Source: Bacteroidota bacterium
GTDB taxonomy: Bacteria; Bacteroidota; Bacteroidia; Chitinophagales; LD1
Assembly: GCA_018267365.1 (NCBI GenBank)
Contig: JAFDYQ010000003.1
Span: 1-64,000 of the forward strand
Reading direction: 5' to 3'
Length of the DNA: 64,000 bases
Below the pieces are notes generated by a model that saw nothing but the letters and a program-made list of their open reading frames with translations, searched no databases and was not told the origin of the DNA. Shown here piece after piece: positions 30,606 through 35,467 of the stretch (the first letter of the stretch is position 1; each line of letters starts with the position of its first letter). The position numbers and the translations under genes were made by a program.

Positions 30606-31178
30606 TCAGAGCTTTAAAAATTGTGAAAGTAATAGCTCGCCGGCAGTGCCGCTTTTCTCCGGGTGAAACTGGACAGCGTAAAAATTGTTGCGACGCATAG
30701 CTGCGGAGAAATCATGTATGTAGTGACAAGTGAGTGCAGTGTCTGCATTGGCAGGCACGTAGTAGCTGTGCACGAAGTAGTACCAGCCTGATGGGAAAAC
30801 ATCGCCGGCGCGGAGAGCAATAGTTGTATTCCAACCCATATGGGGTACCTTGAGATCTGGCGGGAAAAGCCGCACACGCTGATCGAAGACCCCGAGACAG
30901 GGTGTGTCCCCTTCATCCGTGTGTGCACAAAGCAGCTGCATGCCGAGGCAGATACCCAATAACGGTTGCTTAAGTTGAGGTATAGCAATGTCGAGGCCTC
31001 TCTGCCGAAGCGCCTGCATGGCTGGGCGGGCATGGCCTACACCGGGAAAGATCACCTTGTCTGCACTGCTGATCTCGGCCACATCACTACTCAGGATGGC
31101 TTCTGCGCCTAAGCGCTCTAGTGCCATGCTGACTGATCGTGTATTGCCGGCACCATAATCTATAATGACTACTTTCAT
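30606..31178 (-). CDS. hisH: Imidazole glycerol phosphate synthase, glutamine amidotransferase subunit
   Basis: A 190-residue class I glutamine amidotransferase that feeds ammonia to HisF. The nucleophile Cys is in [11 protein letters not shown], and the His-Glu pair is in [11 protein letters not shown]. The oxyanion region [13 protein letters not shown] is present. Its ATG overlaps the hisB stop by four bases (ATGA arrangement), indicating coupled translation. Confidence 0.96.
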
Positions 31179-32089
31179 AATATTCCTTTGGTAGAAGGTA
31201 GTTGCATATTGTTGAAATCGCGTCGTAGCGCCATTTTGATGGCTTTGGCGAAGGCCTTGAAAATTGCTTCTATTTTGTGGTGTTCGTTATCGCCTTCTAC
31301 TTTGATATTCAGGTTGCACCTGGCGCCATCAGCAAAAGATTTGAAGAAGTGATAAAACATCTCAGTGGGCATATCACCTACCTTTTCCCGCTTGAACTCC
31401 GCATCCCACTCTATCCAGCTTCGTCCACCAAAATCAATGGCGACCTGCGCCAGCGCATCGTCCATAGGCAGGCAGAAGCCATAGCGCTCTATGCCCCGCT
31501 TATCACTCAGCGCTTTGGCAAAAGCTTCACCCAAAGTGATCGCCGTGTCCTCTATGGTATGATGTTCATCTATATGCAGGTCGCCTTTGGTTGTGATGTG
31601 CAGGTCTACGCCGCCGTGACGTGCTACCTGCTCCAGCATATGGTCAAAAAAATGCAGGCCTGTAGAGATTTCGGCCCGACCCAGGCCATCAGGATTCAAA
31701 GCGATGGAGATTTGTGTCTCTTTGGTGTGGCGCTGATGGGATATTTTGCGCGAAGCGCCCCTCAACTCCCGATAAATACTGAGCCAATCCGAATCATCAA
31801 GGAGTATGACAATGCCTGCAAAATCCGCAGGTTTATTTTTGACCAGTGTGACCAGTATATCATAGTTCTCAATAGGGGCTTCTATTGCTACTATATCAAA
31901 CACTACCTGCTCACTCTGGAATATTTCCTTGACAAAAGTAAAAGCTTCGTGCGCTGAAGAAAGTAGTGCAGGTTTATATCCCAGTTCATTGACTGTTCGG
32001 CTAATGGCAGTGATGGCATGCTCGTGAAAAGATAACGGCTTTACGCTTTTGATCACGGCATCCATATCTATCAGCAATTTCTTATTCAT
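31175..32089 (-). CDS. hisB: Imidazoleglycerol-phosphate dehydratase with a shortened, degenerate phosphatase-like N-terminal domain
   Basis: The C-terminal 190 residues (about 115-304) are a complete IGP dehydratase with the His/Glu manganese motifs [24 protein letters not shown] and [10 protein letters not shown]. The first 114 residues sit where bifunctional HisB carries its HAD histidinol-phosphatase, and they read like a relic. Asp8-x-Asp10 (LLIDMDAVI) keeps HAD motif I and NKP plus DDSDW recall motifs III and IV. The zinc-binding Cys/His cluster is gone (no Cys in this part), motif II is not recognisable, and the domain is about 50 residues shorter than the E. coli one. Full bifunctional HisB is near 355-380 residues; this is 304. 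The start overlaps the hisC stop by four bases. Confidence 0.9.
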
Positions 32090-33135: not shown

Positions 33136-34427
33136 TATTTCTTTTTCATCTTTTGTAATCTGATGCTTACGGCCTGACTGTGCGCATAGAGCTGCTCCGC
33201 CTGCGCCATGGTCTCTATGACTGGGCCCAGGGCCTCCAGTCCGCTCTGCGTGATCTGCTGGTAGGTGACCATTTTGGTAAAGGAATCAAGTGATACACCG
33301 GAGTATGTCCGCGCAAAACCAGATGTGGGCAATGTGTGATTGGTGCCACTGGCGTAGTCTCCGGCACTCTCAGGAGTATAGTTTCCGATGAAAACAGACC
33401 CGGCGTGATCGACGTTTTTTATGTAATAATCCGTGTCTTTGACAGCTAGGATAAGATGCTCCGGGGCATAGGTGTTTATGATGTCTACGGCCTGTTTCCG
33501 AGTGCGAACGAGGACGGTTTTTGAATGTCCAAGCGCTTGAGCAGCGATGTTTTTGCGCGGTAGCGCTGTGAGTTGTTTGCGCACTTTTGCATGAATATCC
33601 GCTATCAGCCTTCTGCTGAAAGAAATAAGCACCACCTGCGAGTCAGGGCCATGCTCGGCCTGTGAAAGCAGATCAGCAGCGACGAAAGAAGGTTCACAAC
33701 TATCATCAGCTACTACCAGTACCTCAGAGGGTCCCGCAGGCATATCGATAGCTATGCCGCTCTGCTGGACTAGCTGTTTGGCCAGGGTCACATAGCTATT
33801 GCCGGGGCCAAATATTTTATTGACCCGTGGTATCTGCTGTGTGCCAAATGCCATAGCCCCGATGGCCTGCGCACCACCTACCTTATACACGTGCCTGATA
33901 CCACACAGCTGAGCAGCATACAGGATAGCGGGATGCACATTGCCGTCTGCTGATGGGGGTGAGCACATGACGATCTTGCGGCAACCTGCGATCTGCGCAG
34001 GTATAGCCAGCATGAGCACGGTGGAGAAAAGCGGCGCGCCGCCTCCCGGTATATAGATGCCCACATCAGAGATAGGACGGCTATCGCGCCAGCAGGTCAC
34101 ACCTGGCATGGTTTTAATTTTAGCAGGCTTGACCTTTTGTGCCAGGTGAAACTTATGAATATTGGTGTAGGCTACTTTAATGGCAGCTTTGAGCTTTCTG
34201 TCCAGGTTTTTTGCTACGCCGGATATTTCGGAGCGGCTCACAGCCATTTGAGTGAGGCTGACCCTGTCAAACTGCGCCGTGTATTTCATTACGGCTTTAT
34301 CACCATTTAGCCTGACATCATCGAGTATGCCCTGCACAGAGCCTAGAGTGGATGCTTTGCTATCCTGTGCGGGTCGCCGGAGCAGTACCGCCAGCTGGTC
34401 CGTCTTTGGGTATTCTATTATCTGCAT
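33135..34427 (-). CDS. hisD: Histidinol dehydrogenase
   Basis: A 430-residue zinc enzyme that oxidises histidinol twice with NAD+ to L-histidine. The zinc and catalytic regions are SQAEHGPDSQVV (His ligand) and the GTNHTLPTSGFARTYSG segment, together with the conserved PAGPSEVLVVAD and IDMPAGPSE strands. Start MQIIEYPKTD and length are usual. It follows hisG by 6 bases. Confidence 0.96.
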   Translation of the reverse strand: MQIIEYPKTDQLAVLLRRPAQDSKASTLGSVQGILDDVRLNGDKAVMKYTAQFDRVSLTQMAVSRSEISGVAKNLDRKLKAAIKVAYTNIHKFHLAQKVKPAKIKTMPGVTCWRDSRPISDVGIYIPGGGAPLFSTVLMLAIPAQIAGCRKIVMCSPPSADGNVHPAILYAAQLCGIRHVYKVGGAQAIGAMAFGTQQIPRVNKIFGPGNSYVTLAKQLVQQSGIAIDMPAGPSEVLVVADDSCEPSFVAADLLSQAEHGPDSQVVLISFSRRLIADIHAKVRKQLTALPRKNIAAQALGHSKTVLVRTRKQAVDIINTYAPEHLILAVKDTDYYIKNVDHAGSVFIGNYTPESAGDYASGTNHTLPTSGFARTYSGVSLDSFTKMVTYQQITQSGLEALGPVIETMAQAEQLYAHSQAVSIRLQKMKKK

Positions 34428-34433
34428 TGTCTC

Positions 34434-35294
34434 TTATTGAACCATTTTCTCAATAGGAACGACCAGGATACCCTGGGCACCGGCAGCGGTGAGCGCATCT
34501 ATTCTATCCCAAAATTCATTCTCATTGATCACCGAGTGCAGAGAGCTCCAGCCCGCCTCTGCGAGAGGCAATATGGTCGGACTCCTCATGCCGGGGAGCA
34601 GCGCGACTATTTCCTTTAGCTTGTCATTAGGAGCATTGAGTAGGATGTATTTGTTACTGCGCGCAGCAAGTACAGCATTGATCCTGAATATCAGTTTGCC
34701 CAAGAGCTGCCGGGTGGGAGGATCGAGGTTTTGCCCGGAGATGAGCACCGCCTCGGAGCGATGAATGACCGCCACCTCCTTGAGCCCATTTTTGAACAAG
34801 GTAGATCCTGAGCTGACGATATCGCAGATACCATCGGCCAGGCCGATATTAGGCGCGATCTCTACAGAGCCTGAGATTTGGTGTATCTCTGCCTCGAGCC
34901 CATTTTTTTTCAGAAATAGCCTTAGTGTATTGGGGTAGGAGGTGGCGAGCTTTTTATCATTGAAATAGTGCAACCCTGGGTAATCTTCTGATTTTGGAAT
35001 GGCGAGACTGACTTTGCATTTGCTAAAGCCAAGCTTCAGTACCACATCCACACGATGCGGAGTTTCAATGAGGAGATTCTCGCCGATAATGGCTATATCG
35101 GCTACGCCATCCTCCACATACTGAGGGATATCACTATTGCGGAGAAAAAAGATATCCATCGGGAAATTGGCAGCAGAGACCTTCAGCCGGTCCTCACCCA
35201 TGTCTATGGCTATGCCACATTCTTTCAATAGCTTCAGGGAGTCCTCGTTGAGCCTGCCTGATTTTTGCACCGCAATGCGGATTCGATTTTCCAT
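34434..35294 (-). CDS. hisG: ATP phosphoribosyltransferase (long form)
   Basis: The first enzyme of histidine synthesis, joining ATP and PRPP. I start at MENRIRIAVQKSGRLN (ATG at 35294), giving 286 residues. A longer frame to 35354 would read through the attenuator hairpin and is rejected. The catalytic half has SGSVEIAPNIGLADGICDIVSSGSTL split as usual, with the PRPP-binding loop DIVSSGSTLFKNGL. The C-terminal 75 residues form the ferredoxin-like regulatory domain of the long HisG, so feedback by histidine is expected. There is no HisZ gene here, as fits the long form. It is the first structural gene after the leader/attenuator. Confidence 0.96.
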   Translation of the reverse strand: MENRIRIAVQKSGRLNEDSLKLLKECGIAIDMGEDRLKVSAANFPMDIFFLRNSDIPQYVEDGVADIAIIGENLLIETPHRVDVVLKLGFSKCKVSLAIPKSEDYPGLHYFNDKKLATSYPNTLRLFLKKNGLEAEIHQISGSVEIAPNIGLADGICDIVSSGSTLFKNGLKEVAVIHRSEAVLISGQNLDPPTRQLLGKLIFRINAVLAARSNKYILLNAPNDKLKEIVALLPGMRSPTILPLAEAGWSSLHSVINENEFWDRIDALTAAGAQGILVVPIEKMVQ

Positions 35295-35304
35295 ATAAAA
35301 TAAA

Positions 35305-35327
35305 AAGCCCACCATTAAGGCGGGCTT
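35305..35327 (-). terminator. his operon attenuator (terminator hairpin just before hisG)
   Basis: On the minus strand a 9-bp stem (AAGCCCGCC / GGTGGGCTT, one G-U pair in RNA) with loop TTAAT is followed by TTTATTTT and then, within 11 bases of the stem, by the hisG ATG. It is a classic intrinsic terminator placed between a His-rich leader peptide and hisG. Its 5' arm GCCCG can also pair with CGGGC at 35365-35369, just after the leader stop codon. This gives a possible antiterminator extended by TGG / ATCA pairing. Confidence 0.85.
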
Positions 35328-35372
35328 GATTAAAGTTGAGCTACTAAAATGCAACTGTCTCCATGCCCGGCG

Positions 35373-35417
35373 CTAGCCAAGATGGTGATGGTGAGCAAAT
35401 GCGATGATAGCAGACAT
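35373..35417 (-). CDS. His leader peptide (HisL-like), 14 residues
   Basis: An ATG at 35417 opens a 15-codon frame: Met-Ser-Ala-Ile-Ile-Ala-Phe-Ala-His-His-His-His-Leu-Gly-stop (CAC CAT CAC CAT for the His run). Four consecutive His codons followed by an intrinsic terminator ahead of hisG is the signature of ribosome-mediated attenuation. With scarce charged tRNA-His the ribosome would stall on codons 9-12, leaving the CGGGC segment after the stop codon free to pair with the terminator's 5' arm, and the operon is read. With enough histidine it reaches the stop codon, covers CGGGC, and the terminator forms. Confidence 0.88.
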   Translation of the reverse strand: MSAIIAFAHHHHLG

Positions 35418-35435
35418 GAATATTTTGTTGTGATG

Positions 35436-35467
35436 TGAATGTAAAAAATCAATCGGTTTTTTGCAAA
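35436..35467 (-). promoter_or_regulatory. Probable his operon promoter
   Basis: On the minus strand, TTTG (35467-35464), 20 bases, then TACATTCA (35443-35436): a fair match to the Bacteroidota TTTG / TAnnTTTG promoter, with the last two bases off consensus. It would start RNA about 10-15 bases before the leader ATG. Confidence 0.4.

Follow-up and report, generated by a model that had tools for sequence, protein, structure and literature searches.

Does the histidine operon of this Bacteroidota genome carry a ribosome-mediated attenuator, as a first-pass annotation of the locus proposed, and how far does such an element extend among related genomes? The window examined here (the whole stretch of 64,000 nucleotides that was analysed) contains a complete his operon, hisGDCBHAF-IE, on the minus strand (35294–28516), the strand on which all of the features described below are located. 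Its first gene, hisG (35294–34434, ATG at 35294), was identified with TIGR00070 and PF01634, and the rest of the operon (hisD, hisC, hisB, hisH, hisA, hisF, and hisIE) occupies positions 34427–28516. The 14-residue leader frame with a run of histidine codons, which had been claimed upstream of hisG, is present: it runs from the ATG at 35417 to the TAG at 35373 (14 codons, or 15 with the stop), encodes MSAIIAFAHHHHLG, and includes the four His regulatory codons CAC CAT CAC CAT at 35393–35382. Directly 3' of the leader stop is segment 2, CGGGC (35369–35365), the 5' side of the proposed antiterminator, which begins 12 nt past the last His codon. Its partner GCCCG (35325–35321) is part of segment 3, AAGCCCGCC (35327–35319), which is common to the antiterminator and the terminator. 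The intrinsic terminator itself (helix 3:4), described earlier as a 9-bp stem with a U tract just before the hisG ATG, was confirmed at 35327–35305 as AAGCCCGCC-TTAAT-GGTGGGCTT followed by the T-rich TTTATTTTAT; it lies 45 nt from the leader stop, and the hisG ATG is 10 nt past the end of the stem. To these we add a 6-bp protector hairpin (helix 1:2, CUUGGC-UAGC-GCCGGG, 35381–35366), absent from the first-pass annotation, in which the end of the leader frame, including its stop, pairs with segment 2. Helices 1:2, 2:3, and 3:4 are thus all present, the textbook three-helix set.

We consider that the element is very probably a ribosome-mediated transcription attenuator of the his operon, a reading derived from sequence comparison and supported by conservation, covariation, and a covariance model across many families. 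The locus has a short leader frame enriched in codons for the amino acid of the pathway, an intrinsic terminator between the leader and the first structural gene, and a covarying antiterminator that excludes the terminator (not significant in the window alone), all of which are features of this attenuator class. From this we infer transcription, ribosome stalling, termination, and a response to histidine, as follows. RNA polymerase would start upstream of the leader, and a ribosome would begin the leader peptide without a Shine–Dalgarno motif. When charged His-tRNA is scarce, the ribosome would stall at the four His codons and cover segment 1, segment 2 (CGGGC and its neighbours) would pair with the GCCCG arm of segment 3, and hisG would be transcribed. 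When His-tRNA is charged, the ribosome would reach the stop codon and cover segment 2, helix 3:4 would form, and RNA polymerase would stop 10 nt before hisG. If no ribosome were present, the 1:2 hairpin would also free the terminator.

When the window sequence was folded alone, the terminator hairpin had a predicted energy of −16.1 kcal/mol, and none of 200 shuffles was equally stable. The CGGGC and GCCCG segments lie where the first-pass annotation had placed them, and their pairing was upheld by the comparison with relatives, but the antiterminator fold of the window was no better than those of shuffled sequences (p about 0.35). Because the antiterminator is indistinguishable from shuffles in a single sequence, the case for it rests on the relatives. 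The extension of this helix by TGG/ATCA, also proposed earlier, is possible but is only one of several, and an inner stem just downstream (35356–35334) also contributes to the antiterminator; in the minimum-energy fold, this stem is AGUUGC/GUAGCU, with AGTTG (35356–35352) and CAACT (35338–35334) as the alternative. Inner stems of a similar kind are present in the relatives (their covariation was not counted). The energy of the antiterminator fold (−17.2) is close to that of the terminator hairpin, which implies that the outcome depends on kinetics. The protector hairpin (−6.9 kcal/mol) was borderline, with 14 of 200 shuffles equally stable; significance was not reached from the window alone for this hairpin or for the antiterminator, and these single-sequence results were hence not counted as evidence.

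Scanning of genome contigs yielded 80 named Bacteroidota hisG loci, 79 of which had enough upstream sequence, in lineages that included Chitinophaga, Maribacter, Leeuwenhoekiella, Marinifilum, Reichenbachiella, and Saprospiraceae. Leaders were defined as short frames in which three or more of five codons are for His, and terminators were counted up to 110 nt from the leader stop. His-run leaders occurred at 75 of the 79 loci. Possible loss of the His codons or of the alternative pairing in relatives, a point raised in the first-pass annotation, was checked at the same loci: 72 of the 79 keep both the leader and the terminator, and both helices covary. In a separate draw from the phylum, the leader was found at 29 of 29 loci and the leader with the terminator at 26. 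The corresponding frequencies for the leader and for the leader with the terminator were 1.6% and 0.05% in dinucleotide shuffles of the upstream regions, 2.8% and 0.7% in coding-stretch controls, and 2.8% and 0 in the reverse-complement control. All 72 related leaders contain three to seven His codons, and both synonymous codons are in use (298 CAT and 70 CAC). In the nearest relative (L011), whose HisG is 90% identical to that of the window, the leader codons 5' of the His run show many differences and no indel, whereas the stretch CAY ×4–CTT GGC TAG (His4-Leu-Gly-stop) is kept with one synonymous change.

Some loci that appeared as exceptions in the first scan were rejected as such. The His run of L025 is interrupted, and its model score is 75.7 bits; L039, L046, and L070 scored 59–78 bits. 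At L057, the element sits one gene further upstream (L057:453–552), where it precedes an inserted GxxExxY-like gene that now stands before hisG. L039, from Marinifilaceae, carries a tandem pair of complete His attenuators before hisG (L039:1140–1269 and L039:1322–1457), with the leaders MIFTRLHHHHFFLPQVSR and MTFIARHHHHHHLYLLQVNW, both followed by terminators and scoring 77.6 and 60.4 bits. The joint presence of the His codons and the terminator, as the first-pass annotation expected, is general, but L016, from the window's own family, departs from it: the terminator is kept, and what is left of the His run is His-Cys-His, after a possible TTG start (35 bits), so that L016:329–428 is apparently a decaying attenuator. 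At L013, in the same family, the element is absent upstream of hisG. His-rich leaders for which the scan found no intrinsic terminator precede hisG at L106, L107, L115, L127–L129, and L153–L155; these families may terminate transcription in another way or be controlled at translation. Among 20 genomes with divergent HisG (25–32% identity), 19 had no upstream His leader, which ties the element to the Bacteroidia-type HisG and his operon and not to the whole phylum as defined by the tool.

The window and its nearest relatives have 10–15 nt between the terminator and the hisG ATG; elsewhere, this distance is mostly 20–117 nt. Control might instead act at hisG translation, with the 3:4 hairpin mainly blocking the entry of ribosomes to hisG or with the ribosome re-initiating there, and the short distance in the window and its nearest relatives is in keeping with this. 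In most relatives, however, the hairpin is too far from the hisG start to block it, and a 9-bp GC-rich stem with a U tract is typical of intrinsic termination, so that we regard control at this level as unlikely.

For the ribosome-mediated transcription attenuator, we aligned 53 sequences from the His codons to the U-tract. The terminator helix was paired in 98.3% of cells; each of its nine pairs showed double changes, and both sides were changed in 131 cells, compared with 37 in the shuffled alignment. The antiterminator helix was paired in 78.5% of cells, compared with 29–39% when it was slid by 1–3 columns, and its double changes numbered 57, whereas shuffles gave 28 ± 8. Column pair 37–103 of this helix is U-A in 23 and C-G in 22 of the 53 sequences; column pair 39–101 pairs in only 20. 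Since the antiterminator and the terminator share the same 3' columns and both covary, both structures are kept even though they are mutually exclusive. The protector hairpin, in the form CTTRCC/GGYRAG, was perfect in 28 of the 53 relatives, compared with 5.5% in shuffles.

The spacing and the folding with imposed ribosomes are also consistent with sensing by a stalled ribosome. In all 53 aligned sequences, the antiterminator starts 10–20 nt past the last His codon, which is approximately where the edge of a ribosome lies when the His codon is in its A site. A simulated ribosome at the His codons left the terminator arm sequestered upstream at all 72 loci, whereas a ribosome at the stop codon did so at only 10 of the 72. 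Shuffled spacers sequestered less of the terminator arm (5.0 vs 8.6 nt), and the nascent fold was more stable than those of spacer shuffles at 55 of the 72 loci (p < 0.05). When antiterminator arms were swapped among 24 non-redundant loci, a locus's own pairing was stronger on average (−13.3 vs −9.3); fewer than 5% of the swaps were equally good at only 8 of the 24 loci. This weak discrimination is attributable to the similarity of the arms across lineages, and the alignment-based covariation was used instead.

A covariance search upstream of hisG, which had been suggested for this locus, retrieved the element across many families. Across 395 genomes of the phylum, the model R1 placed 79 of its 82 top matches within the 300 nt preceding hisG, in the orientation of that gene, a result that measures specificity more than independent discovery because some of these genomes are of the same species as the loci used to build R1. 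The element in the window scored 51 bits (E = 3.4e-6) and was the only significant match in its own genome (next E = 0.1). Weak matches elsewhere in this genome were inspected and look like ordinary terminators, except for C75:16889, a candidate leader resembling a SAM riboswitch. These results also bear on the notion that the hairpin merely terminates the upstream aspartyl-protease-like gene (35997–35560) and that the His-rich frame is incidental. That gene shares the strand of the leader, and the 142 nt between its end and the leader would be a normal place for a terminator, but a His-run frame followed by a terminator arose in just 0.05% of shuffles compared with 72 of 79 hisG loci, the terminator arm covaries with the end of the leader, and in genome after genome the model locates the unit before hisG; we therefore consider this explanation very improbable.

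The R1 matches that were not beside hisG mostly had the same architecture with other codons. In a relative, the leader MKNLNNIIITITIIAIQQ precedes a threonine dehydratase gene (ilvA), and Ile-rich leaders precede branched-chain aminotransferase genes (ilvE) and an acetolactate-synthase-small-subunit-like gene (ilvN-like). A leader beginning with MNFIITTTTISTTTTISSC precedes an aspartokinase/homoserine dehydrogenase gene (thrA), and MMNKIQNTNWWHMTNSVFGIGW precedes trpE; the identities of these ilv, thr, and trp neighbours were read from their translations alone. This change of codon with the pathway is what the role of a codon sensor predicts. Attenuators of the same layout with runs of Ile, Thr, or Trp codons were recorded in other Bacteroidota at L200, L201, L203, L204, L205, and L206, and the thrA of the window's own genome has no recognisable leader. 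In an Rfam search of the window and region, no family reached its cut-off, the best weak matches being terminator look-alikes, and no T-box or known riboswitch family matched at its gathering score. Control of the operon by a riboswitch, a T-box, or a protein-binding leader such as that of a histidine repressor, with the leader peptide secondary, is scarcely credible even though His T-boxes or the HisR repressor serve his genes in other phyla (PMC9413887), given this Rfam result, a conserved part that begins at the His codons with a spacing to segment 2 that fits a ribosome footprint, and other operons in relatives that swap codons and keep the layout.

Leader translation in the predicted attenuators does not seem to rely on Shine–Dalgarno pairing: none of 64 ATG-started leaders had GGAG, GAGG, or AGGA within 20 nt. 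At 33 of 72 loci, compared with 4.7 expected, the Bacteroidota promoter motif TAnnTTTG occurred in the 90 nt that precede the leader ATG. Near the leader in the window, the exact motif is not present, and a possible but weak −7 element, TCCATTTG (35471–35464), has one mismatch to it.

The element resembles the enterobacterial hisL (RF00514, His_leader) in its run of His codons, short leader peptide, mutually exclusive helices, and terminator before hisG. The window scored only 16.8 bits against the RF00514 gathering cut-off of 49, in line with the first-pass view that the logic of HisL is followed without the enterobacterial sequence, and the Bacteroidota model R1 gave E. coli hisL a score of 27.2 bits (E = 0.002). 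The window has four His codons, whereas E. coli has a long run, and its layout is a compact one of three helices with no Shine–Dalgarno motif before the leader. The mechanism is classic, and the element is well supported and widespread but introduces no new principle. Earlier computational work of the Lyubetsky group may already have listed candidates in Bacteroidetes. In Proteobacteria and some Firmicutes, his genes have been described as being under leader-peptide control (PMC9413887, PMC2965389). According to a 2010 survey, which added Firmicutes, only Proteobacteria and Actinobacteria had until then been shown to use leader-peptide attenuation (PMC2965389); Bacteroidota are absent from a 2022 survey of his regulation (PMC9413887). 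The attenuators of Firmicutes (Bacillus cereus group, Peptostreptococcaceae, and Erysipelotrichales) are similar in their predicted His-leader peptide, terminator, and antiterminator (PMC9413887, PMC2965389), but they belong to another phylum, differ in sequence, and occur in only a few lineages, whereas the element described here precedes nearly every Bacteroidia-type hisG.

A transcriptome study of F. psychrophilum reported a conserved structured element before hisG in Flavobacteriaceae with no Rfam match, and its authors pointed to strong clues for leader-peptide attenuation before amino-acid operons (PMC9723704). This is very likely the same element as that in the window; the main text of that study does not give a leader sequence, an antiterminator, or covariation, nor does it name a range that extends past Flavobacteriaceae (PMC9723704). 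In the open-access full texts searched, the Bacteroidota hisG element received only a passing mention, and it has no Rfam entry. We think that, on balance, a previously unrecognised family of Shine–Dalgarno-free, ribosome-mediated attenuators probably controls amino-acid operons in Bacteroidota (his and, in relatives, ilv, thr, and trp). If so, transcription and translation would be closely coupled in a phylum that translates its leaders independently of Shine–Dalgarno pairing, and ribosome–RNA polymerase coupling in Bacteroidota would become directly testable. The device could explain how these bacteria match histidine synthesis to demand, and its near-universal presence before Bacteroidia-type hisG makes it a ready family for annotation with the covariance model.

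The operon and its genome show further features. HisB (31175–32089, minus strand) has a normal dehydratase domain, and PRK05446 matches only from its residue 144; at its N-terminus, approximately 110 residues with no Pfam match replace the usual histidinol-phosphatase region. Searches of the window's genome (97% complete) gave no member of the trpE, ilvD, or prephenate dehydratase families, and a hisG match was obtained in only 10 of its 31 near relatives. One reading is that this lineage is losing amino-acid pathways and that his has been kept here.
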